A stretch of 64,000 bases of DNA, from the NCBI RefSeq assembly GCF_025961575.1, contig NZ_JAOQNX010000012.1:62001-126000 (forward strand). The letters run 5' to 3'. This DNA comes from Rhodoblastus acidophilus. GTDB taxonomy: Bacteria; Pseudomonadota; Alphaproteobacteria; Rhizobiales; Beijerinckiaceae. The notes beneath the pieces were generated by a model that ran no database searches, had not been told where the DNA came from, and saw nothing but the letters and a program-made list of their open reading frames with translations. The translations under genes were made by a program, and so were the position numbers. The first letter of the stretch is position 1. The number at the start of each line of letters is the position of its first letter. Shown piece by piece: positions 1-12,202 of the stretch.

Positions 1-276
1 GCGCAGCAAGGCGGGCGCGGGGCCGCTCGCAGACAGGATCGGCGCGCCCGCCGCGAGCCGGTCGCCGCTGTGGGCGGCCAGCGTCACGCGCGCGCCAGCG
101 AGCTCAAGCAGACGCGCCGCCGCTTCGGCCAAGGCGACAACCATCGGGCTTCGTGCGGAAAAATCCATGCGGCCGCTGGCGCTGGCGAGGCCGAGCTGGT
201 CGGTGGTCAAATCGCCGAAGGGGACGTCGTCGTCCAGCAGGCGCTCGAGTTCTGAATCGGAAAAAAGAATCGGCAT
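1..276 (-). CDS. modD: ModD-like molybdenum transport protein, N-terminal part
   Basis: This frame opens on the minus strand at 276 and runs off the window edge, so only the first 92 residues are visible. They start MPILFSDSELERLLDDDVP followed by FGDLTT, the N-terminal pattern of ModD, a quinolinate phosphoribosyltransferase-like protein encoded near molybdate transporters. ModD's exact reaction is not established. The start codon overlaps the stop of the upstream gene (TGATG), so translation is probably coupled. The neighbour is a molybdenum-hydroxylase accessory gene, which supports a molybdenum-related role. The related nicotinate-nucleotide pyrophosphorylase NadC is the alternative, but the molybdenum neighbour and the N-terminus favour ModD. 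Confidence 0.75.
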   Translation of the reverse strand, partial: MPILFSDSELERLLDDDVPFGDLTTDQLGLASASGRMDFSARSPMVVALAEAAARLLELAGARVTLAAHSGDRLAAGAPILSASGPAPALLR

Positions 277-1121
277 CAGCGTGAATGGGGGGCGGCCCTA
301 AAACCTCGTTTCGCTGTCCCCTTTATCGCCGCGAGCGCGGCCTTGGCAAGGTTTTTGGCGTCGGGGTCCAGCCCCCGGCAAGTCCGACCCTCGTCGGGCG
401 CGATTTCGGCGACCGGCGAGCCCTCGGCGAGCATCAGGCCGTCGCGGGCGAGCCCGACCAGCACGCCATCGAGGCGCGCCCGCACCGAGGCTTCGCCGAT
501 ACGGCCGATCAAATCGCCGCGCGCCACGGAATCGCCGATCTCGAGCGCCGTATGCCAGACGCCCCGCGCCGGCGTGACGGAGAAAGCGGGGTCGTCGCGA
601 CCGACTGCGCTCTGGCACGGCTGCTGCGCGACGCAATGATGCACGGCGCCGCAATGGGTGGGCGCCGCCTCAAGGGCGAGATCGCAGTTTTCGCCCACCT
701 TGAAATGATCGCCCAGTCCGACGGAGAGGCCGACGTAATGGCGGTAATCCGGCGTGGCGGTCGAGGGTTTCAGCCGCGCGTCGATCAGCAACTGGATGCG
801 GCGCAGCGCCAGCAGATCGCTCAATTGCAGCGGCGTCACCGCGACACAGGCGTCCTCGGCGGCGATTTCGGCGAGATGCACCGCGTCTTCCGCTCTGCGC
901 GCGCGCACGCCGTCCAATTCGCATTCGTCGTCGTAGAGGGCGTCATCGAAAGACATGCCCCGACGCAGAACCGGCGGGCAGGGCTCGTGGGTGAGGATGA
1001 CGTGATAGCCGCCCTTGCGCAGTCTTACGGCCAAGGCCGAGGCAATCTCATTGGTCCCCAGGATCACCGCGACATCCGCGTCGGTGGCCGAGACGAAATA
1101 AGGAAAGGAAGTCGCGTTCAT
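276..1121 (-). CDS. EF2563-type molybdenum hydroxylase accessory protein
   Basis: This 281-residue protein resembles the EF2563/YqeB family, linked by gene neighbourhood to maturation of molybdenum hydroxylases. Residues 17-30 (AVILGTNEIASAL) look like the nucleotide-binding start of a Rossmann-type fold. The last third contains a GDLIGRIG-type turn like those of lipoyl or biotinyl-like barrels. I chose the ATG at 1121 because GAGGGGCGGGG lies just before it; the open frame continues further upstream but without family-like sequence. The gene is translationally coupled to modD, and a sigma-54-like promoter lies about 65 bases upstream. The family name comes from selenium-dependent enzymes, but nothing here shows selenium use. 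Confidence 0.7.
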   Translation of the reverse strand: MNATSFPYFVSATDADVAVILGTNEIASALAVRLRKGGYHVILTHEPCPPVLRRGMSFDDALYDDECELDGVRARRAEDAVHLAEIAAEDACVAVTPLQLSDLLALRRIQLLIDARLKPSTATPDYRHYVGLSVGLGDHFKVGENCDLALEAAPTHCGAVHHCVAQQPCQSAVGRDDPAFSVTPARGVWHTALEIGDSVARGDLIGRIGEASVRARLDGVLVGLARDGLMLAEGSPVAEIAPDEGRTCRGLDPDAKNLAKAALAAIKGTAKRGFRAAPHSR

Positions 1122-1185: not shown

Positions 1186-1201
1186 TGCATGGGTCGCGCC
1201 A
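1186..1201 (-). promoter_or_regulatory. sigma-54 (-24/-12) promoter candidate for the EF2563-modD pair
   Basis: Read on the minus strand the site is TGGCGCGACCCATGCA, with GG and GC separated by exactly 10 bases. It agrees with the RpoN consensus TGGCACG-N4-TTGC at most fixed positions. A start of transcription about 12 bases further would leave a leader of roughly 50 bases before the ATG at 1121. A TGT-N10-ACG half-match to a NifA upstream site lies at 1263-1278, with one mismatch. Confidence 0.5.
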
Positions 1202-1302: not shown

Positions 1303-1623
1303 TTAAGCCTTGCGTGTTTCCGAAACCGCGACAAAACCCTCGAAGCGCGGCGGTCCCAGATATAGCCCTTGCGTTTTGGGCGCGCCGGAATGGGCGCGTC
1401 GGAACGCTTCGGATTTGGTCCAGGCTTCAAAAGCCTGTTCGCTTTCCCAGATTGTGTGGGACACGAATGTGGTCGCTTCCTCATCGCTGGCGCCGCGCAG
1501 CAGGTGGAAAACGACAAAACCGGGCATGGCGGGCAAGTCGCTCTGGCGATTGCGCCAGACCTCTTCAAATTGCGCCTCGCGGCCGAGCGCAACGCGGAAA
1601 CGGTTCATGGCGATAAAGGTCAT
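1303..1623 (-). CDS. ABM-domain monooxygenase (HmoA/IsdG-like)
   Basis: The product has 106 residues and one antibiotic-biosynthesis-monooxygenase (ABM) domain. Visible features are the opening beta strand (FIAMNRFRV), the F..VWR helix, PGFVVFHLLRG and a final VSHTIWESEQAFEAW block. These are typical of the heme-degrading monooxygenase-like HmoA/IsdG group and of related ABM enzymes; the substrate cannot be told from sequence. Its ATG lies 10 bases after the stop of the unknown gene at 1634-2386, so it is the last gene of the sufB-led operon. A role in heme or iron handling would suit that operon but is inference. Confidence 0.7.
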   Translation of the reverse strand: MTFIAMNRFRVALGREAQFEEVWRNRQSDLPAMPGFVVFHLLRGASDEEATTFVSHTIWESEQAFEAWTKSEAFRRAHSGAPKTQGLYLGPPRFEGFVAVSETRKA

Positions 1624-1633
1624 CGGTGCTCCC

Positions 1634-2386
1634 TCAGGCGCGGCGGGCGAGCGATCGCAAGAAACCCGTGGCTTCCTCGGACAAATCCTGCTCGATGGCC
1701 GGGGCCATTTTCAGCAGGACATTGGCGACGAAAGCTTCGTCATTGCGCGGCTCCGCCAGGATGTCGCGCAGGATCGGCACATTGTCCTCGATATGGGCGA
1801 GAAAGGCGACGCCTTTTTCCAGCGTCTCGGTCCAGCGCGTCCGGGTCCACAGCGCCAGCGCATAAATGATTTCCTGGGCGAAATTGGAGCCGCGCGCCTT
1901 TTCCAGAAAGCGCAGGCCGGTATTCCAGTTCTCCTTGGCGCGCATCGGCGGTGGAACCGGGGCGTTGTCGAGCAGTTTTTGCGCGGCCTGGCCGACATGG
2001 TCTTCGAGGCTGACCGGCTCTTCGATATCGCCGTCAAAGCTCCAAAAAGCCGGGGCGCCCGGGAAATCCGCGCCATATTTTTGCAAAAGGCCGGACTTGA
2101 GTTTTTCCAGGCCGGCGCGGTCGCCCTTGAGCGCGGCGGTCATGGCGAAAGCGAACAGCGCGTCCTTGGCCACCGCGCCGACGCCGCCGCTTTTCAATTG
2201 CTGGGGCGTGAGCGCCGGGGGCTGGCCGTCGGCGGCGGGCGCCGCCTCGCCGGCGCGCACAGCGGAGACATGGGCGGTGATTTCCAGCCACGGCTCAAAA
2301 AGGGAGAGGAACAGGTCGGGATCGGCGAAGACCACGCTGATGTTGATCGCCTTCTTGCGCTTCATCAATTCGGTCATGTCGAGCAT
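1634..2386 (-). CDS. Unrecognised protein in the suf-Rieske operon
   Basis: I do not recognise this family. The product has about 250 residues, no cysteine cluster, no signal peptide and no obvious membrane segment. It is predicted to be largely helical and cytoplasmic. The N-terminus (VVFADPDLFLSLFEPW) is hydrophobic and acidic, and the C-terminal half repeats helix-like blocks such as ALALWTRTRW and NDEAFVANVLLKM. I chose the ATG at 2386 because GGAG sits six bases before it; an in-frame ATG at 2398 has no comparable ribosome site. It lies between the Rieske gene and the ABM gene on the same strand, so it probably belongs to the suf operon. Confidence 0.65.
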   Translation of the reverse strand: MLDMTELMKRKKAINISVVFADPDLFLSLFEPWLEITAHVSAVRAGEAAPAADGQPPALTPQQLKSGGVGAVAKDALFAFAMTAALKGDRAGLEKLKSGLLQKYGADFPGAPAFWSFDGDIEEPVSLEDHVGQAAQKLLDNAPVPPPMRAKENWNTGLRFLEKARGSNFAQEIIYALALWTRTRWTETLEKGVAFLAHIEDNVPILRDILAEPRNDEAFVANVLLKMAPAIEQDLSEEATGFLRSLARRA

Positions 2387-2506
2387 TTTGGTCTCCATCT
2401 GCCGGTCGGATCGGTTTTTTGGGGGCGCCTGCTTTGTTGTGAAGACAGGCGCGCGCAAACGTTCAGGCTTTGCGGCCTGTTCAGTTTCGACGATGGTTTC
2501 GAAAAA

Positions 2507-2935
2507 TCAGTCGCTGGTGATCATCACGCCGGGGCCCTCGTCTTCGAGGTCGAGCCCGTCTTCCTCAAAAAGTTCGACGCCGGTGATGCAGACGTCTCCG
2601 TCATCGACGACGACTTGGATGGTCTTGAGATTTTGGCCCTGGCAGGGGCCGGAAAAACAGGCGCCGGTGTCGAGATCGAATTGCGCCCCGTGGTGGCGGC
2701 AGACGAGGAAATTTCCGGCCTCGTCCATGAACTCTTCCAATCCGGCGTCGAGGCGCTTGCCTTGATGCGGGCAGGAATTTTCGAAGCCATAAAAATTCTT
2801 GCCTTTTCGCGAGATGACGATGGGCCAGGGTTTTCCGACCTTTTTGCCGTCCTCCTCCACCGCCTTTTGCAAGACAAACCCTCTTGCGGAATGGTCCTCG
2901 ATCTCAAACGTGCTGCAAACGGCGAAGAGTTCCAT
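2507..2935 (-). CDS. Rieske [2Fe-2S] ferredoxin-like protein
   Basis: This 142-residue soluble protein carries one Rieske domain. The ligands are C55-x-H57 (SCPHQGKRLD) and C79-x2-H82 (CRHHGAQFDLDTG), the canonical C-x-H and C-x2-H pairs that hold a 2Fe-2S cluster. It has no signal peptide or oxygenase catalytic domain, so it is probably a cytoplasmic electron carrier of the NirD/small-ferredoxin type rather than a dioxygenase subunit. It follows sufT on the same strand after a 219-base gap that holds a foldback repeat, so co-transcription with suf is likely but not certain. Its electron partner is not visible. Confidence 0.85.
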   Translation of the reverse strand: MELFAVCSTFEIEDHSARGFVLQKAVEEDGKKVGKPWPIVISRKGKNFYGFENSCPHQGKRLDAGLEEFMDEAGNFLVCRHHGAQFDLDTGACFSGPCQGQNLKTIQVVVDDGDVCITGVELFEEDGLDLEDEGPGVMITSD

Positions 2936-3154: not shown

Positions 3155-3508
3155 CTAAAGCATCCCCAATTCGAGCTTTGCCTCGTCGGACATGGTGGCC
3201 GGGCTCCACGGCGGGTCGAACACCAGGTTCATCTTGACCGCCTTGGCGCCGGGGGCGAGCAGAACCGCCCGCTCCACGCGCTTCAGCATTTCCCCCGCGA
3301 CCGGGCAGCCCGGCGCGGTAAGGGTCATGTCGATCTCAATATTTTCCGGGTTGGAGACGTCGAGCCGGTAGATCAGCCCGAGGTCATAAACATTGACCGG
3401 GATTTCCGGGTCGAACACGGTCCGGATCGCGGCGATGGCGTCCTGCTCCAGATCGCCGGTCCATTCGGGCAGTACGACGTCTTCGCGAAAAACAGGCGCA
3501 TCCATCAT
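3155..3508 (-). CDS. sufT: SufT, DUF59/MIP18-type Fe-S assembly factor
   Basis: The product has 117 residues and spans one MIP18 (DUF59) domain. DPEIPVNVYDLGLIY (about residues 33-47) and TLTAPGCPVAGEM with its single conserved cysteine are the family signatures. Known SufT proteins assist maturation of Fe-S proteins, mainly under high demand for clusters. Its start codon overlaps the stop of sufS by four bases (ATGA), so the two are translationally coupled. The acidic N-terminal stretch of about 20 residues before the domain is usual in alphaproteobacterial SufT. Confidence 0.9.
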   Translation of the reverse strand: MMDAPVFREDVVLPEWTGDLEQDAIAAIRTVFDPEIPVNVYDLGLIYRLDVSNPENIEIDMTLTAPGCPVAGEMLKRVERAVLLAPGAKAVKMNLVFDPPWSPATMSDEAKLELGML

Positions 3509-4752
3509 GCAAACAACTCCAGCACGCGGCGCAGACCCTTCACCAAAACTTCCACCTCCTCATGGGTGTTGTAGAGCGCGAAGGAGGCGCGGGCGCTCGC
3601 GGTGAGGCCGAGCTTCGTCATCAGCGGCTGCGCGCAATGCGATCCCGCGCGCACCGCAATGCCGGCGCGGTCGAGAATGGTTGACACGTCCTGCGGGTGC
3701 GCGCCCTCGACATCAAACGTCACCAATGCGCCCTTGTTCGGCGCGCGGCCAAAGATGCGGACTTTGCCGAGCTTGTCGATTTCCTCCGTCGCATGGGCGA
3801 GCAGAGCGGCTTCGTGCGCGGCGACCGCCTCGCGGTCGAGCCCCATCATGAAGTCGAGCGCCGCGCCGAGGCCGATGGCTTCGACGATCGGCGGCGTGCC
3901 CGCTTCAAAACGGTGCGGCGGGGCCGCGTAAGTGACCTTGTCCTTGTAGACATCGGCGATCATTTCGCCGCCGCCCTGATAGGGCTGCATCTGCGCCAGC
4001 AGATCGTATTTGCCGTAGAGAAAACCGATGCCGGTGGGGCCATAGAGCTTGTGGCCGGTGGTGACGTAGAAATCGACGCCGAGCGCCTGCACATCGACGA
4101 TCTCGTGCACAGAACCCTGGCAGCCGTCGATCAGCACCTTGGCGCCGACGCCGTGCGCCAGTTTGACGATCTCCGCCACCGGGGTCAGCGTGCCCAGCAC
4201 GTTGGACATGTGAGTGATCGCGACGATTTTCGTCCGCGGCGTGAGCAGCGCGGCGAAGGCGTCGAGATCGAAGGAACCGTCGTCCTTGATCGGCGCCCAT
4301 TTCAGCACCGCGCCCTTGCGTTCGCGCAGAAAATTCCACGGCACGATGTTGGAGTGGTGCTCCATTTCCGAGACGATGATTTCGTCGCCTTCGGAAATTT
4401 CCGCGCCGAGGCTGGAGGCGACCAGATTGATCGCTTCCGTTCCGCCTTTGGTGAAGACGATTTCATCGACCTTGGCGGCGTTGACGAAGGCGCGGCAGGT
4501 TTCGCGCGCCTGTTCAAAGGCGACTGTGGATTCGCCCGACAGAAAATGCGCGCCGCGATGGACGTTGGCGTAAATGTCGGAATAGCCGCGCATCAACGTG
4601 TCGAGCACGATCTGTGGCTTTTGCGCGGAGGCGCCGTTGTCGAGATAGACCAGCGGCTTGCCATGAACGTTGCGCGAAAGGATCGGGAATTGCTCGCGGA
4701 TGGCGCGCACGTCGAAATGCGTGGTCTCCTTGAGGAGGGCGTTACTCGACAT
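3505..4752 (-). CDS. sufS: SufS cysteine desulfurase
   Basis: This 415-residue pyridoxal-phosphate enzyme takes sulfur from cysteine for Fe-S cluster assembly. The PLP lysine is K235 in TTGHKLYGP, and the persulfide cysteine is C373 in RAGSHCAQP, as in group II desulfurases. Length is normal for SufS. A small deviation is DGCQGSVH (residues 209-216) where many relatives have DGAQ. It overlaps sufD by 11 bases and sufT by four, so translation is tightly linked. No SufE or SufU sulfur carrier is encoded next to it, so that partner must be elsewhere. Confidence 0.96.
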   Translation of the reverse strand: MSSNALLKETTHFDVRAIREQFPILSRNVHGKPLVYLDNGASAQKPQIVLDTLMRGYSDIYANVHRGAHFLSGESTVAFEQARETCRAFVNAAKVDEIVFTKGGTEAINLVASSLGAEISEGDEIIVSEMEHHSNIVPWNFLRERKGAVLKWAPIKDDGSFDLDAFAALLTPRTKIVAITHMSNVLGTLTPVAEIVKLAHGVGAKVLIDGCQGSVHEIVDVQALGVDFYVTTGHKLYGPTGIGFLYGKYDLLAQMQPYQGGGEMIADVYKDKVTYAAPPHRFEAGTPPIVEAIGLGAALDFMMGLDREAVAAHEAALLAHATEEIDKLGKVRIFGRAPNKGALVTFDVEGAHPQDVSTILDRAGIAVRAGSHCAQPLMTKLGLTASARASFALYNTHEEVEVLVKGLRRVLELFA

Positions 4753-6010
4753 GGGCGGCCTCGCCGGCGTGGGTGGTCAGCCAGGCGTTGACGCTTTTCG
4801 CCATCGCCTCGCGCAAAACCTCGTTCTCGATCTTGTCCAGGGCCTCGCCGAAGAACGCCTCGATCAGCATGGCCCGGGCCTCGGCTTCAGGAATGCCGCG
4901 CGCGCGCAGGAAGAACAGGGCGTTGGCGTCGAGTTCGCCGGCGGTGGCGCCATGGCTGCACTTCACGTCGTCGGCAAAGATTTCCAGTTCCGGCTTGGTG
5001 ACGATTTCGGCCTTGTGCGACAGCAGCAGGGCGCGGCTGAGCTGGCGCGCGTCGGTTTTTTGCGCGACCTGTCCGACCTTGATGCAGCCCTGATAGACCC
5101 CGCGCGCGGAGCCGGCCAGCACCGAGCGGAACACCTGATTCGACGTCGCATTGGGCGCGGCGTGCTCGATCACCGTGGTGTTGTCGCAATGGCGGCTGTC
5201 CGCGACCATCACGGCGCCGTCGAGTTCGACATGCGCGGTTTCGCCCGCGAGTTTGAGCAGCGCCTCGTGGCGGGCGAACTGGCCGCCTTGCGAGAAATAG
5301 AAGGCGCGATAGGTCGCCTCTTCCGCGATTTCGCCCAGGGTGACCGCCGCCTGACGCGCGCCCGCCAAAAACGATTCCTGGCGGATGTGGGTGAGTTTCG
5401 CGCCCTTGCCGAGCGTGAATTCGGTGACCACGGTCGAAAACAGCGGCGCGCCATCATGGGTCTCGTAAACGGTGAGTTCGGCGCCCTCTTCAAGCTGGAT
5501 CAGCAGGCGCAGATGGCGGTCCGAACCGGCGCCGGTCCAGAGGAAGCGCAGGTGCAGCGGCAGGCTGACTTTTTCGCCAGCGGGCACGCGCAGGGCGAGC
5601 CCTTCCTCCAGCAAAGCGGTGTTGAGATTGACGATCGGGTGGTCGACCTGCGGATAGACCTTGCCGATGATGCGGGCGAGCGGCGAATCCTTTTCGCCGA
5701 GCGCCGTGCGCAGGTTGAGCGCGCCGACCCGGGCGTAACTGGATTTGTCGTCCAGCACGCCATCGACGAAGGCGGCGACCGCCGCTTGTTGCAGTTCCGG
5801 GGCGACGACCGGCGTCGCGTCGGCAACGGGATCGTCGCGCAAGACTTTGGCGAGATCGGAATAACGCCAGGCTTCCACGCGGCGATTGGGCAAGCCCTCG
5901 CGCTTGAAAAATTCCTGGGCCTGGCCCTGCAGGTCGCCGAGCCAGGGAGCGACGGCGCCGCGTCGCTTCTCCATGGTGGCGAGCAGGTTTTCGGAGAGCG
6001 AACCTGTCAT
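4742..6010 (-). CDS. sufD: SufD, Fe-S cluster scaffold subunit
   Basis: The 422-residue product matches SufD, which joins SufB and SufC in the SufBC2D scaffold. The C-terminal beta-helix half shows CSHGATAGELDANALFFLRARG, the SufD/SufB core motif, followed by EAFFGEALDKI. Divergent N-terminal helices (residues 1-90) include the FFKREGLPNRRVEAWRYSDL pattern seen in SufD. Eight bases separate it from sufC upstream. Length and motifs are normal, and there is no sign of decay. Confidence 0.95.
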   Translation of the reverse strand: MTGSLSENLLATMEKRRGAVAPWLGDLQGQAQEFFKREGLPNRRVEAWRYSDLAKVLRDDPVADATPVVAPELQQAAVAAFVDGVLDDKSSYARVGALNLRTALGEKDSPLARIIGKVYPQVDHPIVNLNTALLEEGLALRVPAGEKVSLPLHLRFLWTGAGSDRHLRLLIQLEEGAELTVYETHDGAPLFSTVVTEFTLGKGAKLTHIRQESFLAGARQAAVTLGEIAEEATYRAFYFSQGGQFARHEALLKLAGETAHVELDGAVMVADSRHCDNTTVIEHAAPNATSNQVFRSVLAGSARGVYQGCIKVGQVAQKTDARQLSRALLLSHKAEIVTKPELEIFADDVKCSHGATAGELDANALFFLRARGIPEAEARAMLIEAFFGEALDKIENEVLREAMAKSVNAWLTTHAGEAAHVE

Positions 6011-6017
6011 GAAAACC

Positions 6018-6767
6018 TCACGCTGCTTTGGCGATCACGGCGTCATAGCCGTTCTGTTCCAGTTGCAGGGCGAGGCTCTTGTCGCCCGAAAGCACGATTT
6101 TGCCGCCGGCCAGAATGTGGATGACATCCGGCACGATATAGTCGAGCAGGCGCTGGTAGTGGGTGATGACGAGGAAAGACCGGTCGGGCGCGCGCAGCTT
6201 GTTGACGCCTTCGGCGACGAGTTTCAGCGCGTCAATGTCGAGGCCGGAATCCATTTCGTCGAGGATCGCCAGTTTTGGCTTGAGCAGCGCCATTTGCAGG
6301 GTCTCGTTGCGCTTCTTCTCGCCGCCGGAAAAGCCGACATTGAGCGGGCGCTTGAGCATGTCTTCCGAAATGTTGAGTTCCTTCGCCGCGGAGCGCACCG
6401 CACGCAAAAACTCGGCGGCGTTGAGTTCCCTCTCGCCGCGCAATTTTGCTTGCGAGTTCATCGCCGTCTTCAAGAAATTCATCGTGGAGACGCCGGGGAT
6501 TTCCAGCGGGTATTGGAAGGCCAGGAAGATGCCGCGGGCGGCGCGCTCTTCCGGCGCCAGCGCCGTGACGTCCTCACCGAAGAAGTCGATTTCGCCCTTG
6601 GTGACTTCATAGCCGGCGCGGCCCGCCAGCGTATAGGAGGTGGTCGACTTGCCCGCGCCGTTCGGACCCATGATGGCGTGCACTTCGCCCGGCGGCACCT
6701 TGAGGTTCAAACCTTTGAGGATTTCCTTGCCGTGGACGTTGACGTGCAGGTCTTTGATCTCGAGCAT
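6018..6767 (-). CDS. sufC: SufC, ABC-type ATPase of the SUF system
   Basis: The 249-residue ATPase powers the SufBC2D scaffold. Walker A is GPNGAGKST at residues 34-42, the ABC signature is FSGGEKKR at 146-153, and Walker B runs LAILDE with D170 and E171. The modified signature GGEKKRNE is characteristic of SufC rather than of transporters, and there is no membrane partner nearby. The start codon shares a base with the sufB stop (TAATG), so it is translationally coupled. Confidence 0.97.
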   Translation of the reverse strand: MLEIKDLHVNVHGKEILKGLNLKVPPGEVHAIMGPNGAGKSTTSYTLAGRAGYEVTKGEIDFFGEDVTALAPEERAARGIFLAFQYPLEIPGVSTMNFLKTAMNSQAKLRGERELNAAEFLRAVRSAAKELNISEDMLKRPLNVGFSGGEKKRNETLQMALLKPKLAILDEMDSGLDIDALKLVAEGVNKLRAPDRSFLVITHYQRLLDYIVPDVIHILAGGKIVLSGDKSLALQLEQNGYDAVIAKAA

Positions 6768-8227
6768 TAACCGACGCTCCCTTCGAGGCTGAGTCCGACG
6801 AGTTTTTGCGCCTCGACGGCGAATTCCATGGGCAGTTGCTGCAGCACTTCGCGGCAGAAACCGTTGACGATCAGCGAGACGGCTTCCTCGGTCGGGATGC
6901 CGCGCGACAGACAGTAGAACAGTTGATCATCGGAGATTTTCGAGGTGGTGGCCTCGTGCTCCAAAATGGCTTTTGGATTCTTGGACTGGATGTAGGGCAC
7001 GGTATGCGCGCCGCACTGGTCGCCGATCAGCAGCGAGTCGCATTGGGTGAAATTGCGCGCGCCATCGGCCTTCTGGTGGATGCTGACGAGGCCGCGATAG
7101 GTGTTTTGCGCCTTGCCCGCAGAAATGCCCTTCGAAATGATCCGGCTCGAGGTGTTTTTGCCCAGGTGGATCATTTTCGTGCCGGTGTCGGCCTGTTGAA
7201 AATTGTTGGCGATGGCGATGGAGTAGAATTCGCCCACCGCATTTTCGCCGCGCAGAATGCAGGACGGATATTTCCAGGTGATCGCCGAACCGGTCTCGAC
7301 CTGGGTCCAGGACACTTTGGAATTCTTGCCCCGGCAATCCGCGCGCTTGGTGACGAAATTATAGATGCCGCCCTTGCCGTTCTCGTCGCCCGGAAACCAG
7401 TTTTGCACCGTCGAATATTTGATCTCGGCGTCATCGAGCGCGACCAGTTCGACGACAGCGGCGTGCAACTGGTTTTCGTCGCGCTGCGGCGCGGTACAGC
7501 CTTCCAGATAGGAGACGTAGGAGCCGGCGTCGGCGATGATCAGCGTCCGCTCGAACTGGCCGGATTTGGCCGCATTGATGCGGAAATAGGTGGACAGCTC
7601 CATCGGGCAGCGGACGCCCGGCGGGATATAGACGAACGAGCCTTCTGAGAAGACCGCGGCGTTGAGGGTGGCGTAAAAATTGTCGGTGTCGGGGACGACC
7701 GAGCCGAGATATTTCTTCACCAGTTCAGGGTGGGTTTTGACCGCCTCGGAAATCGGGCAGAAGATGACGCCGACCTTGGCCAGTTCATCCTTAAAGGTGG
7801 TGACGACGGAGACGGAGTCGAACACCGCGTCCACCGCCACCTTGCGCTGCTCGACGCCGGCCAAAATCTCCTGTTCGTGCAGGGGAATGCCGAGCTTTTC
7901 ATAGGTCCGCAGCAGTTCGGGATCGACATCCTCGAGCGTATGCGGACCTTCCTTCGCCTTGGGCGCGGCGTAATAATAGGCGTCCTGGAAGTCGATCTTG
8001 GGATAATGCAGTTTGGCCCATTTGGGCTCCTCCATGTTCACCCAACGCCGATAGGCCGAGAGGCGATAGTCGAGCAGCCAGTCCGGCTCGTTCTTCTTCG
8101 CCGAGATGAAGCGGATGACGTCTTCGTTCAGGCCTTTCGGCGCAAATTCGGATTCGATATCGGAGACGAAACCGTACTTGTATTTCTGTTCGGTCAGTTC
8201 TTGCAGGGCTGCTGCTTCTTCGCTCAT
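6767..8227 (-). CDS. sufB: SufB, Fe-S cluster scaffold subunit
   Basis: This is the first gene of the suf operon, encoding 486 residues. SufB binds the nascent cluster in the SufBC2D complex. Family signatures include [20 protein letters not shown] in the middle, [18 protein letters not shown], and the C-terminal [17 protein letters not shown] with [20 protein letters not shown]. No iscR-like regulator precedes it, unlike many alphaproteobacterial suf operons. Instead a sigma-54-like promoter lies in the 71-base gap upstream. The operon then reads sufC-D-S-T, Rieske, unknown, ABM. Confidence 0.97.
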
Positions 8228-8274
8228 GTCCGAATCCCGACGGAGAATTTAATTGATCTAGTCGTACCTCAAAA

Positions 8275-8290
8275 TGCAAGGGCGGCGCCA
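8275..8290 (-). promoter_or_regulatory. sigma-54 (-24/-12) promoter candidate for the suf operon
   Basis: On the minus strand the site reads TGGCGCCGCCCTTGCA, with 10 bases between GG and GC and nine of the eleven fixed RpoN consensus positions matched. Transcription would begin near 8263 and leave a leader of about 36 bases before sufB. The site lies in the short gap between the TPR gene stop (8299) and the sufB start (8227), the correct place and direction. Confidence 0.6.
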
Positions 8291-8298
8291 GCGGCGTT

Positions 8299-8781
8299 TC
8301 AGCCGGCGATTCCCTCGCAAAGCGCTGCGATCACCGGCCAGCCGACCTTGCCGGCGGGATCCAGCGTTTTCAGGGCATTGAGTATGTCTTGGGCAGAATC
8401 GACCTCCTCGCGCCGCAGATGGATGAAAGCCGTCGCCTTGAGGGTGTAAAGGGCGAAGCGACCTGCGCCCTCAGGAAAGGGGTTTTGCGGGGTCCATTGG
8501 CGCCAATCCTCGGGCCAGCCGGCTTGCTGCGCCGCCTTGCGCAGACCGGTCCGCGCCATGTCCAGCGCCACGTCGAGATCGCCGTGGTAAGTGTGAATTT
8601 TGTAGAGGCAGAAGTAACTTGCGAGTTCTTCGGGCTCGACGTCCAACGCCTGCCTGAACAGGTTTTCCGCGCGCGTAAAATCGCTGCGATAGGCGACCAC
8701 GCCCTGTTGCAGCAGCGCGTCGATTCTTGGGCTGATCGCTCCGAAATTGACCTCTTCGCTTCCGGGAAAATTGAGCAGCAT
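8299..8781 (-). CDS. TPR-like small protein of nif-type neighbourhoods
   Basis: The 160-residue product has helix-turn-helix pairs of the tetratricopeptide kind. One begins near FTRAENLFRQALDVEPEELA (about residues 36-55), followed by YKIHTYHGDLDVALDMARTGL. No catalytic motif or signal peptide is seen. I chose the ATG at 8781 because GGAGG precedes it at good spacing, although the frame stays open upstream. Similar small TPR genes occur beside Grx4 and ferredoxin genes in diazotrophs, which is the arrangement here. Its divergent partner across a shared regulatory gap is grx4. Its exact function is unknown. Confidence 0.75.
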   Translation of the reverse strand: MLLNFPGSEEVNFGAISPRIDALLQQGVVAYRSDFTRAENLFRQALDVEPEELASYFCLYKIHTYHGDLDVALDMARTGLRKAAQQAGWPEDWRQWTPQNPFPEGAGRFALYTLKATAFIHLRREEVDSAQDILNALKTLDPAGKVGWPVIAALCEGIAG

Positions 8782-8894
8782 GGGGGAACCTCCACGGATC
8801 GTGCGATGGAGAGGGCTGCAAGTCCGGGGCCGGGCGTTGCGTCGTGTTTCGGACACGGGTCTCTGTCGATGTTGCGACGCGGCGCCATTGGCTG

Positions 8895-8910
8895 TGGTCC
8901 CGCTTTTGCA
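8895..8910 (+). promoter_or_regulatory. sigma-54 (-24/-12) promoter candidate for grx4
   Basis: The plus-strand sequence TGGTCCCGCTTTTGCA has GG and GC separated by 10 bases and a perfect TTGCA -12 element; the -24 side is weaker. Transcription would begin near 8921, about 47 bases before the grx4 ATG. A TGT-N10-ACG sequence at 8864-8879 is close to, but not exactly, a NifA site and is unusually near. Confidence 0.5.
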
Positions 8911-8924
8911 TTGATCCAGATCAA
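8911..8924. promoter_or_regulatory. FNR/FixK-type box
   Basis: The sequence TTGATCCAGATCAA is a perfect TTGAT-N4-ATCAA palindrome, the consensus operator of FNR/FixK-family regulators that respond to low oxygen. It sits in the divergent gap between the TPR gene and grx4. It starts right after the -12 element of the sigma-54 candidate. It could activate the minus-strand TPR gene (centre about 136 bases upstream of its ATG) or modulate grx4. Confidence 0.7.
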
Positions 8925-8967
8925 ACGCGCCTGCACAGTCGCGTTCGTTCAGCCAAGAGGTCATTTC

Positions 8968-9303
8968 ATGTCGGAAAAAACCAGCGAGCGCATCAAGGGC
9001 ATTGTCGAAGGCTCGGACATTGTCCTGTTCATGAAGGGCGTTCCCGCCGCGCCGCAATGCGGTTTCTCCGCCGCCGTCGTCAAAGTGCTCGACGGGTTCG
9101 GCGTCAAATACGATTCGGTCAACGTGCTCGCCGATCCCTTTATCCGCGAAGGCCTGAAGGAATATTCCAACTGGCCGACCTTTCCGCAGCTCTATGTGAA
9201 GGGCGAGTTCGTCGGCGGCTGCGACATCGTTCGCGAAATGGCCGCGAGCGGCGAGTTTACAAAACTTCTGGCCGACAACGGCATTGAAAAGGTGAGCGCA
9301 TGA
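8968..9303 (+). CDS. grxD: Monothiol glutaredoxin, Grx4 family
   Basis: The 111-residue protein is a CGFS-type monothiol glutaredoxin. The active cysteine is C31 in PQCGFSAAVV, followed by the WPTFPQLYVKGEFVGGCDIV glutathione-binding region. Proteins of this family hold and transfer 2Fe-2S clusters in the cytoplasm. The four-base ATGA overlap with the next gene, a 2Fe-2S ferredoxin, indicates coupled translation. The gene lies downstream of a sigma-54-like promoter and an FNR-type box. The combination points to Fe-S delivery during nitrogen fixation or microaerobic growth, which is inference. Confidence 0.95.
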   Translation: MSEKTSERIKGIVEGSDIVLFMKGVPAAPQCGFSAAVVKVLDGFGVKYDSVNVLADPFIREGLKEYSNWPTFPQLYVKGEFVGGCDIVREMAASGEFTKLLADNGIEKVSA

Positions 9304-9653
9304 ACGTCCACGTCGCCCCCTCTTTCGCCGATGTGCCGCAGGTCTACACCCGGCATGTCTTCGCCTGCTACACGCAGCGCCCGCCGGGCCATCCGCGCGG
9401 CTCCTGCGGCCAGCAGGGCGCGCAGCCGCTGTGGGACCGGCTGTCGAAAAAGCTCGAAGCCGAGCGTCTCGGCGAGGTCGGTTTTACGCCGGCGGGCTGC
9501 CTCGGTTTTTGTCGCGCCGGGCCGCTGATGGTGGTCTATCCCGAGGGCGTCTGGTACGCGCCCAAAACCCCGGAAGACATTGACGAGATCGTCGAGACCC
9601 ATCTCAAGGGCGGCGCCCTGGTCGAGCGCCTGGTGATCGTGCCGACGCGCTGA
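9300..9653 (+). CDS. Thioredoxin-like [2Fe-2S] ferredoxin
   Basis: The 117-residue product belongs to the thioredoxin-fold 2Fe-2S ferredoxins (Shethna/NuoE-like). The four expected ligands are C23 (FACYTQRP), C36 (RGSCGQQG), C67 and C71 (GCLGFCRAG), spaced C-x12-C and C-x3-C. Such proteins can carry electrons or protect nitrogenase from oxygen in some diazotrophs. It overlaps grxD by four bases. A strong 14-base-pair hairpin follows the gene, so the pair may form a short operon. Confidence 0.9.
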   Translation: MNVHVAPSFADVPQVYTRHVFACYTQRPPGHPRGSCGQQGAQPLWDRLSKKLEAERLGEVGFTPAGCLGFCRAGPLMVVYPEGVWYAPKTPEDIDEIVETHLKGGALVERLVIVPTR

Positions 9654-9795: not shown

Positions 9796-10002
9796 ATGAA
9801 AATCTCCGCGCGCAACGTGCTCGCCGGCAAGATCGTCGAGATCAAAAAGGGCGCGACCACCTCCCATGTCCTGATCGACGTCAAAGGCCTGATCGTCACC
9901 TCCGCCATCACCAACGAAGCGGTCGAGGAACTCGGCTTGAAGGTCGGCGGCGAAGCCAGCGCCGTGATCAAGTCCTCGGACGTCATGGTGATGGTCCCCT
10001 GA
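9796..10002 (+). CDS. mop: Mop-type molybdenum-pterin binding protein (molbindin)
   Basis: The 68-residue product is a single TOBE/Mop domain. It begins MKISARNVLAGKIVEIKKGA and continues through VLIDVKGLIVTSAITNEAVEEL to the final AVIKSSDVMVMV, the standard molbindin pattern. Molbindins form hexamers that bind molybdate in the cytoplasm and may buffer or store it. No transporter is adjacent, but modD and a molybdenum-hydroxylase accessory gene lie 9 kb away, so the region is enriched in molybdenum handling. An AAAGGGCAAG ribosome site precedes the ATG. Confidence 0.93.
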   Translation: MKISARNVLAGKIVEIKKGATTSHVLIDVKGLIVTSAITNEAVEELGLKVGGEASAVIKSSDVMVMVP

Positions 10003-10009
10003 GCGGATT

Positions 10010-10202
10010 TAGCAGGCTGCTGAAAAACCCGTGGACCGCCCCCGCCCTGGCGCGCGCGCCCGAGACGTCCGCCAAGGCGGGCTCCTCACGGTGAGGGCTA
10101 CGCGATTATTCTATATAAGGAAAATCCCTCATGGTGAGGAGGCTGCGAAGCAGCCGTCTCGAACCATGGCCATCGGAACGGGACTTTTTCAGCAGCCTGT
10201 TA
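10010..10202. repeat. MITE-like foldback element with 15-base terminal repeats
   Basis: The ends CAGGCTGCTGAAAAA (from 10013) and TTTTTCAGCAGCCTG (to 10199) are perfect inverted repeats. Inside them, GAGACGTCCGCC...CTCCTCACGGTGAGGG pairs with CCCTCATGGTGAGGAGGC...GCCGTCTC, making almost the whole 190 bases one imperfect hairpin. It has no coding capacity. The inner CCCTCATGGTGAGGAGGC motif is widespread between genes in Rhizobiales, so this is probably a non-autonomous element mobilised by a transposase elsewhere. Confidence 0.8.
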
Positions 10203-10234: not shown

Positions 10235-10686
10235 TCAGCGCGCCCGCTGCGCCGATCGCGCGGCGCGCAGCAGCGCCAGGATTTCGGCGTTGCCGGCCAT
10301 GTCGAGCGCGGAAAAACCGTCGAGGGTTTCAGCGGATATGTCGGCGCCGCGCGCCAAAAGATGCCGCACGATGGCGGTGCGCGACGAGGAGGCCGCGAAC
10401 ATCAGCGCGGTCGCGCCATTGTCATTCGCATGGTTCATGTCCACGCCCGCGTCGATCAGCAGGTCGAGCAGATCGAGGTTTTCGCCGAAGCAGGCGAGCC
10501 ATAGCGCATTATTCCCGTCCGCGTTGAGCGCCGATGTGTCGCCGCCCGCCAGCAGGATTTTTCGCGCCATGGCCGCATCGCCTTTTTGCGCGGCGCGCAT
10601 CAAAGGCGTGGACTTGTTTCTCCGCGTGCGAAAAGATTTTCAAAACCTTCGGCGCGCAAAAAATCGTCAAGCGTTTGATCCGTCAT
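10235..10686 (-). pseudogene. Ankyrin-repeat protein gene with a frameshift
   Basis: Three to four ankyrin repeats are readable from 10603 to 10235 (ADGNNALWLACFGENLDLLD, DNGATALMFAASSSRTAIVR, then ISAETLDGFSALDMAG). A good start lies upstream at 10686, overlapping sagB by 20 bases, and reads [23 protein letters not shown], then runs out of frame at ETSPRL. Adding one base to the A-run near 10616 would join the two parts as ENKSTPLMRAAQKGD, a typical ankyrin opening. So the gene is either broken, a sequencing error is present, or translation restarts at 10603. Ankyrin genes of this type occur beside sagB in some nif regions. Confidence 0.7.
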
Positions 10687-12202
10687 GGGCGAAAAACTCC
10701 GGGCGGCTTTTTGTGGGATAGGCCGGCTCGGTCGCAATGCGCGAGTCCACATAGGGCAGGCCGACCGTGAAGTGGTACAGGCTCTGCAAATTCTGGTCCT
10801 TCAGCCCGAACAGGGCGTGGGTTTCGTCATCAAAATAGCAGCCAATTCCGGTCCCGCGCAGGTTTTGTCGCTCGGCTTCGAGATAAAGGACCTGGCCGAT
10901 GAGGCCCGCCTCCCAGTGCAATTGCCGGTAGCGCCAGGGGTTTTGCGCCACCAGGGGCGAAAATTCCGCCAGCAGAGCGACGCCGAATGAGGAATCGCCG
11001 CCGATCCCCTGGTTGCAGAACAGCCGCCGGGCGAGGCCGCGCGCGTCCATTTCCTTGAGCAGATAGAGCGGCAGGTTCGCCTCCTCCACCTTGCGCCAGA
11101 GGAAATCGGCGAAAAAATTTTGGCGCATCAGCGCCTCGCCCGCGGCGCTGCGCGGCAGGGCGTAAAGGCCCTGCGGCAGCCCCTCGACGCGGTGGACGAA
11201 CAGCAGCGGATGGACGCGGGGCGAAAAACTCCACAGGTCGAAGGGGGATTTTTGCGGCGCCAGCGCGGCGAGCATGGCGAAAAATTCGTCCGGCGCCATG
11301 CGATGCTTGGGATTGAAGGCCTGCGCGCTGCGCCGTTGCAGGATCAATTCGGCGGTGATGTCCTTGGCCTCGCGTGGGGCGGTCGCGACAAAATTTTCGC
11401 CGGCGGAGCCGAGTGTCGCCTGTACGACATCGTCGATGACGGGCCAGCGATACATCGGCCGGGCGTCGAGCAGATTGGCGGCGCCGCTCCACAAGCCGAT
11501 CTTGTCGGCCGGCGCCGAGGGCGCGCCTTCGCGTTCGAAAATTTCGATCAGCGCGTCGGCGTCCTCGCGTTCGGCGCGGCCAAAATCCTCGGCGCGATCC
11601 AGGCCCAGAAGGCGCGAAAGCGGGGCGCTGTCGAGATTTTCGACCATTTTGGCGGAAAAGCCGAGAGTGTTTGCGGCATAGGCGAGCGCGCCCAGGGCGT
11701 GGCCGAGGTCGAGCTGGCAATAGCGAAAGGCGCGCTCGCCATATTTCCAGGCTTCGCGCCAGGGGATCGAGCTGAGGCCGATCCACAGCCGCGGCGGCCC
11801 CTCGCCCGGCGGATCGGCGCGGCGCTGTTCGAGCACATGGTCGCGGCTGAGATAGTGGTGCAAGCCATCAGCCACGCCCGGAAAATTTTCACTTAAAACG
11901 TAAGACTCGGTCGGGTGCAGATTGCCGCTCGACGGATTGCAGCGCAAAGCCCAGCGGTCCGGGCCAAAACTTTTCCAAGCGGAAAGACCGAAGCTCAGAT
12001 GCAGCAACGCGCCGAGACCGGCGCGCGAAAAGGGGGCGGATGAGCAGTTTTGCGGCGCGAGATCGAGGTCGATCTTTTCGGCGCCCAAAAATTCGCGGAA
12101 CGGATTGGGCTGCGCGTCCCAATCCAGCGTATCCGGGCTGGCGGCGAAGCCGCCGAACCCGTGTTTTGTTCGTTGGTGATAGGCGAAGGCTGTTTCGGTC
12201 AT
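10667..12202 (-). CDS. SagB/ThcOx-type nitroreductase-fold oxidoreductase
   Basis: The 511-residue product begins [16 protein letters not shown] with [13 protein letters not shown], the opening of SagB-type dehydrogenase proteins. Two nitroreductase-like halves follow: [11 protein letters not shown] with [13 protein letters not shown] (about residues 70-110), and [20 protein letters not shown] near residue 285. SagB relatives are FMN enzymes that oxidise azolines in peptide natural products. No precursor peptide or cyclodehydratase gene is seen here, so the substrate is unknown. A sigma-54-like promoter and a hairpin lie in the 60 bases upstream, and the frameshifted ankyrin gene overlaps its end. 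Confidence 0.8.

Follow-up and report, generated by a model that had tools for sequence, protein, structure and literature searches.

A second SUF operon in Rhodoblastus, linked to nifA and preceded by a conserved sigma-54-type motif

Results

A SUF operon lies between molybdenum, nifA and fix genes

We analyzed a 64,000-nucleotide stretch of DNA from Rhodoblastus acidophilus (the window), one end of which carries a SUF operon. Cut-offs are those of the protein family models named, and sigma-54-like sites are scored as matches out of 12 to the RpoN consensus TGGCACG-N4-TTGCW (PMC4999443). The locus holds the following features:

1..276, minus strand: modD, 5' part (ModD over cut-off), the remainder lying left of the window
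276..1121, minus strand: modX, YqeB-like (molybdenum-cofactor related) protein (TIGR03309 115.6 bits, below the cut-off of 220)
1186..1201, minus strand: sigma-54-like site before the YqeB-like gene, at least 10/12 in 9 of 12 loci and at least 9/12 in 12 of 12
1303..1623, minus strand: HmuQ-type haem-degrading ABM enzyme (NF053649 144.8 bits, cut-off 130)
1634..2392, minus strand: 'DUF252' (a working name), all-helical 252-aa protein assigned to no family
2507..2935, minus strand: Rieske [2Fe-2S] protein (PF00355 over cut-off)
3155..3508, minus strand: sufT-like gene, FeS_assembly_P domain (PF01883 over cut-off; TIGR02945 133.5 bits, just below the cut-off of 143.4)
3505..4752, minus strand: sufS, cysteine desulfurase (TIGR01979 over cut-off)
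4742..6010, minus strand: sufD (TIGR01981 over cut-off)
6018..6767, minus strand: sufC (TIGR01978 over cut-off)
6767..8227, minus strand: sufB (NF008773 and TIGR01980 over cut-off)
8275..8290, minus strand: predicted -24/-12 (sigma-54) promoter of sufB, TGGCGCCGCCCTTGCA, 10/12 to consensus
8299..8781, minus strand: TPR-like gene upstream of sufB (TPR_14, under cut-off)
8817..8832, minus strand: weaker sigma-54-like site (9/12) before the TPR gene, in 8 of the 8 Rhodoblastus loci read and 0 of 4 outside the genus
8840..8855, minus strand: NifA-box-like TGT-N10-ACG, one mismatch, in 9 of 9 Rhodoblastus loci and also in G350 before modX
8864..8879, minus strand: NifA-box-like CGT-N10-ACA, one mismatch, in 9 of 9 Rhodoblastus loci and also in G350 before modX
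8895..8910, plus strand: weaker sigma-54-like site (9/12) before grx4-fdx, 9/12 in seven of eight Rhodoblastus loci and 8/12 in the eighth
8968..9303, plus strand: grx4, monothiol glutaredoxin (TIGR00365 over cut-off)
9300..9653, plus strand: thioredoxin-like [2Fe-2S] ferredoxin (NF041613, Azotobacter type, E 1e-23, under cut-off)
9796..10002, plus strand: mop, molybdenum-pterin-binding protein (TIGR00638 over cut-off)
C12:59347-61164, left of the window: nifA (NifA model 706 bits, over cut-off)
L006:12351-13106, left of the window: LRV FeS-cluster gene between nifA and fixA (PF05484 over cut-off, PF01816)

The minus-strand genes run in the order TPR, sufB, sufC, sufD, sufS, sufT-like, Rieske, DUF252, HmuQ-type, YqeB-like and modD, and are followed beyond modD, outside the window, by nifA, the LRV FeS gene, fixA, fixB and fixC. 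The grx4, ferredoxin and mop genes lie on the other side of the locus and point in the opposite direction. We named fixA and fixB by their ETF domains and fixC by its FAD domains and gene order, as the fix-named models stayed under their cut-offs. The same order from suf to fix is found in R. acidophilus DSM 142 and DSM 137, in R. sphagnicola and in further members of the genus.

These assignments, with SufB, SufC, SufD and SufS all over their family cut-offs, bear out the gene list of the original prediction: sufBCDS, a Rieske and an unknown protein, an ABM enzyme, modD, Grx4, ferredoxin, Mop and a SagB-like protein. They also identify the ABM enzyme at 1303-1623 as a HmuQ-type haem-degrading protein, which suggests that haem iron is recycled next to the Fe-S factory. 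A scan of 20 proteins from the locus gave no IscR-family match, in line with the earlier statement that no iscR gene adjoins the operon.

On the plus-strand side, mop is followed by an inverted repeat with 18-nt arms (10010-10027 and 10185-10202) that are 94% complementary and 157 nt apart. SagB-like and ankyrin genes (10235-12202) adjoin the locus on the side of grx4-fdx; this holds for three Rhodoblastus loci (the window, L108 and L109; not L107) and for two g157 loci (L168 and L169). Their retention beside grx4-fdx in these loci may mean that they are linked to the module beyond chance. A sigma-54 site before sagB was rejected as a real promoter, being kept in only one of five loci.

A sigma-54-type motif precedes sufB

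The 71-nt gap between the TPR-like gene and sufB holds TGGCGCCGCCCTTGCA exactly at 8275-8290 on the minus strand. The motif has GG-N10-GC spacing and matches nine of the eleven fixed bases of the consensus, or ten of twelve when the final W is included. This confirms the observation that started the analysis, a 16-mer ahead of sufB with exactly this spacing and nine of eleven fixed positions. From the position of the motif, a transcript start would be expected at ~8264, ~37 nt ahead of sufB. We found no sigma-70-like site within 8150-9050.

In a first-order Markov model of the local composition, a match of at least 10/12 with GG and GC in place is expected at 5.7e-5 per position per strand, which gives P ~0.003 for a gap of this length (~0.3% of gaps). 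Across the genome, the pattern TGGCNCNNNNNTTGCW has 36 matches and a backward control pattern 12. The 64-kb window holds five matches of at least 10/12 on both strands together, and one of these is the poorly kept site before sagB; both facts would suit the view that the sufB motif arose by chance in GC-rich DNA and that the operon is an ordinary duplicate. We consider this view very improbable, given the distribution of the motif across related loci and the separate lineage of the operon, both described below.

The motif is conserved at loci of the same SUF type

The original prediction had proposed comparing sufB upstream regions in related diazotrophs. We defined as type A those loci whose SufB and SufD are of the window's type, and collected 14: nine from Rhodoblastus including the window, three from g157, G350 (g140) and G245 (from another family). 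Loci that represent the same genome or contig were counted once (L121-L123 are the L107-L109 genomes, L171 and L172 those of L147 and L145, and L133 is the L119 contig). G469, whose contig begins inside sufS, is not among the 14.

In 14/14 type-A loci, sufB is preceded within 215 nt by a sigma-54 match of at least 10/12, versus 0/20 for housekeeping sufB, where 9/12 is reached in three of 20. Upstream of housekeeping iscS, at least 10/12 is reached in 0/19 cases and 9/12 in one of 19 (215-450 nt each). A Fisher test of type A against housekeeping loci gives p = 7e-10, a value we do not take as evidence, as the loci are related. The promoter rule had already emerged from the other eleven loci when a SufD search brought up the three g157 loci, which are therefore a fair test of it; all three conform. 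Alignment of the window with four more distant Rhodoblastus showed the motif to be 88-100% identical and the remaining gap 44-49% identical. The corresponding values for three near Rhodoblastus, 94-100% and 82-93%, say little.

Sites of at least 10/12 sit at the starts of transcription units in this locus (sufB 14/14, LRV gene 10/10, fixA 8/9, modX 9/12) and are rare before genes inside the operon (sufC 0/14, sufD 0/14, sufT 0/15, sufS 1/14). A 9/12 match inside sufD, ahead of sufS, recurs in ten of 14 loci, probably for coding reasons. We therefore treat the 9/12 sites before the TPR gene and grx4 as weak evidence, which leaves the sufB site unaffected.

The genomic context of such sites points the same way. 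In the nif/vnf/anf stretches of the genome, 16 of 85 genes have a site of at least 10/12 within 210 nt; the figure is one of 57 in five other stretches and one of 37 in the window past 10.2 kb. Among sites scoring at least 10, those before nifH, nifE, nifB, iscA-nifS and other genes of the same genome score 10-12/12, the four named here 10-11. At 10/12 the sufB motif is as good as these sites, and TGGCGCCGTCCTTGCT before iscA-nifS resembles it closely. Taken together, the comparisons support RpoN control of sufB well, and we infer from them that RpoN itself would bind the motif.

The TPR gene and sufB lie in line only 71 nt apart, and in Rhodoblastus the TPR gene has a sigma-54-like site of its own. 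The operon might thus be transcribed mainly by readthrough from a TPR or housekeeping promoter and serve as a spare SUF copy for general use or stress, with the sufB motif of minor importance. We judge this improbable. The sufB motif persists across loci whose gaps range from 71 to >200 nt, and it is also present in four loci outside the genus where the TPR gene has no site of at least 9/12. The readthrough promoter would moreover itself be sigma-54-like, and our scan of 8150-9050 returned no sigma-70-like alternative.

A second, housekeeping SUF operon is present in the genome

The genome has two sites that encode SufB/D domains. The second (G000:C2) is an iscS-sufBCDS operon with a sufT-like gene, the conventional suf operon that the original prediction had suggested searching for. 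The basic supply of the cell thus need not come from the window operon. The housekeeping iscS-sufBCDS operons of Hyphomicrobiales share the SufB/C/D/S parts with type A, and usually SufT as well, but they have iscS directly before sufB in 20/20 cases, belong to another lineage and have no site of at least 10/12. In six loci of the genus Rhodoblastus, we found no conserved regulator site before the housekeeping operon that we could name.

Five relatives in the family that carry nifA (G536, G544, G400, G485 and G364) have one SufB only (E<=1e-60). Relatives with nifA and a single SUF count against reading the window operon as a dedicated system, and are a weak point of that reading. In three genomes with a single SufB and nifA (L149, L150 and L157), the housekeeping sufB has a 9/12 sigma-54-like site ~135-140 nt upstream, perhaps an internal nif promoter of single-SUF diazotrophs, or chance.

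Type A is a separate and rare SUF lineage

We built two unrooted SufB+SufC trees, of 39 and 38 rows. Compared with the 39-row tree, the 38-row tree has three g157 rows more and lacks G456, Bradyrhizobium STM 3809, B. aeschynomenes and the housekeeping row of SSBR45G. Type A falls on one branch with 100/100 support, distinct from housekeeping SUF as well as from the nifA-sufBCDS type found in Bradyrhizobium, Xanthobacter and family f32. The position of the long G245 row is less certain. A single origin of type A and the Bradyrhizobium type was rejected in the 38-row tree (AU p 9.3e-5). The separate lineage and the rejected joint grouping together indicate that nif-linked SUF probably arose at least twice.

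The two types differ in their regulatory sequences as well. In the nine Bradyrhizobium-type nifA-linked suf loci, no sigma-54 match of at least 9/12 was found in the 450 nt before sufB (0/9), and six of the eight loci examined have exact NifA boxes within 900 nt. Of these nine, L163 holds part of sufB only and was left out of the trees and the NifA-box scan, and L164 starts at a contig end without nifA.

Type A is rare: among 248 genomes sampled from the family, 13 encode a SufD of the window's type (E<=1e-110), and among 337 sampled across the class one does, the window's own. At this threshold distant members may be overlooked; G245, for one, was picked up via SufB. Within the genus, the module is present in ten of eleven sampled genomes, nine recognized by SufD and G469 by its other genes; G324, a Rhodoblastus with nifA, is without the operon, which counts against a dedicated role.

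SufD is a better module marker than either of two other candidates. The TPR gene was dropped, as it is not directly beside sufB in 13 relatives compared (none of them Rhodoblastus). DUF252 marks the Rhodoblastus modules and lies elsewhere mostly apart from suf and nif genes.

DUF252 (1634-2392) is 89% identical to a protein of R. acidophilus DSM 142 and has no Pfam or NCBIfam match at E<=0.001. Its helical predicted model (mean pLDDT 68) found no PDB match at E<=0.001. We scanned 12 distinct DUF252 loci outside Rhodoblastus (L110, L111, L113, L114, L116, L117, L119, L129-L132 and L134), mostly away from suf and nif genes. A sigma-54-like site precedes DUF252 or the Rieske gene before it at 9/12 or better in all 12, and at 10/12 or better in ten. 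Inside the Rhodoblastus operon, DUF252 has its own sigma-54-like site in 0/9 loci. DUF252 looks like an unrecognized nitrogen-fixation protein.

NifA is the likely activator of the sufB promoter

All 14 type-A genomes carry nifA 5-34 kb from sufB, some with further nifA copies. In G245, two exact TGT-N10-ACA boxes lie ~70-100 bp before the sufB promoter, the classical layout. Within ~440 bp of the sufB promoter, we found no NifA box with up to one mismatch that is common to Rhodoblastus; the nearest conserved boxes, those at 8840-8879, each carry one mismatch and stand 550-575 bp upstream. They lie unusually near the TPR and grx4 sites, at 7-39 bp (7 bp from the TPR site), and are supported by their conservation alone, because single one-mismatch boxes are common by chance. 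No exact NifA box was found within 700 nt of sufB in g157 or G350, and an exact TGT-N10-ACA lies in the gap between modX and grx4/fdx in 3/3 g157 loci.

With no proximal NifA box in Rhodoblastus, the promoter could be truly sigma-54-dependent and yet answer to another activator, such as NtrC or the vnf or anf activators, serving general nitrogen limitation or the alternative nitrogenases. The vnf and anf genes of the genome are indeed accompanied by NifA-like activators (490 and 478 bits with the NifA model, below the cut-off of 529). The linkage of nifA in 14/14 type-A genomes, though several have further copies, and the exact boxes of G245 speak against such an activator, and we regard this alternative as rather unlikely. 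NifA is, on the evidence of gene linkage and boxes, the likely activator.

The arrangement resembles the -24/-12 plus TGT-N10-ACA logic of the NifA-RpoN regulon of Alphaproteobacteria; the TGT-N10-ACA box expected ~80-150 bp upstream was not found before Rhodoblastus sufB. In the 2016 reconstruction of that regulon, modD and ferredoxin genes are listed members, whereas suf is not a named member in its main text (PMC4999443).

The nif region encodes SufE and an Nfu-only 'NifU'

The supply of Fe-S clusters to nitrogenase is taught from NifU and NifS. In the nif region of this genome (C21), we found NifS over cut-off, A-type carriers, SufE and an Nfu-only 'NifU'. SufE/SufU is absent from the window operon, and the SufE of C21 is well above its cut-off (PF02657, 159 bits, cut-off 27). 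In the nif stretches read, the C21 'NifU' aligns with the 290-residue NifU model over positions 217-290 only. IscU/NifU signature patterns had no match in 334 kb (overlaps counted) of the 4.9-Mb genome. An Nfu-only NifU and the lack of signature matches in these 334 kb fit SufBCD as scaffold and Grx4 as carrier, without proving it.

Two published systems offer precedents for these roles. In Paenibacillus polymyxa, SufCDB is the scaffold for nitrogenase clusters, with a NifS-like sulfur donor and the NifU-like YutI as carrier (PMC8038749). GrxD and NifU are reported in a carrier role in Azotobacter (PMC13382767).

The genome encodes NifD, VnfD and AnfD, all over cut-off (G000: C51, C14 and C10), and thus Mo, V and Fe-only nitrogenases, with which cluster demand would be high. 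We also noted that the C-terminal end of the 559-aa NifE (L176:1265-2944, G000:C21) weakly matches the [2Fe-2S] middle of NifU (129-185, E 2e-5), the part that the C21 NifU has lost; the same end also weakly matches NirB.

Discussion

Our data are best explained by a second SUF operon of Rhodoblastus that is kept for nitrogen fixation and expressed by RpoN, most likely via NifA; judged from sequence comparisons, we give this reading a probability of about three in four. It agrees with the original prediction of a SUF machine dedicated to nitrogenase or low-nitrogen conditions, which is supported by the second operon, the conserved promoter and the adjoining nifA, the last of which would encode the activator.

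We propose that RpoN holoenzyme would bind the -24/-12 element at 8275-8290 and start transcription of sufBCDST ~37 nt before sufB, triggered by an active enhancer-binding protein, most likely NifA from the neighboring gene, at low oxygen and low fixed nitrogen. Some transcripts may also read through from the TPR promoter. Sulfur would come from SufS with the SufE encoded in the nif region, SufBCD would build the clusters, and SufT, Grx4, A-type carriers and the free Nfu domain would hand them to nitrogenase and its assembly proteins, while HmuQ may recycle haem iron.

A link between suf and nitrogen fixation is not new in itself. Bradyrhizobium DOA9 has a sufBCDS operon downstream of nifA (nifA-fer-sufBCDS; PMC6066989), its suf genes drop in rpoN mutants (PMC13207237), and sufBCDX is named in the nif clusters of photosynthetic Bradyrhizobium (PMC11973431). 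These systems resemble type A in having sufBCDS beside nifA or in a nif cluster, but their SufBC belongs to a separate lineage (AU p 9e-5 against one group). Paenibacillus polymyxa sufCDSUB likewise provides SufCDB as a scaffold for nitrogenase clusters; it is, however, a Firmicute system, and the abstract does not describe it as dedicated to nitrogen fixation or driven by RpoN (PMC8038749).

The earlier description of a possibly undescribed module thus holds in part: nif-linked suf and lower suf expression in rpoN mutants were already published for Bradyrhizobium, and the separate lineage and private promoter appear to be new. Our literature search, which covered titles and abstract openings and few subscription papers, returned no published Rhodoblastus case of nif with suf and no type-A case. 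Our addition consists of the separate lineage, the conserved promoter private to it and a hint that the operon stands in for NifU. A broader proposal is that SufBCD switched by RpoN and NifA replaced the NifU scaffold while NifU shrank to a C-terminal carrier, that a separate SUF lineage feeds the Mo, V and Fe nitrogenases, and that SUF was recruited into nif clusters at least twice in Alphaproteobacteria. We offer this tentatively and give it somewhat less than even odds.

If the main reading is true, clusters would reach nitrogenase by a second route, a SUF system that has a lineage and a nitrogen-fixation promoter of its own. Such a system would also be a candidate part for transferring nitrogenase to other hosts. 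The presence of two SUF operons in the same cell, one presumably general and one switchable, would allow a clean genetic test.
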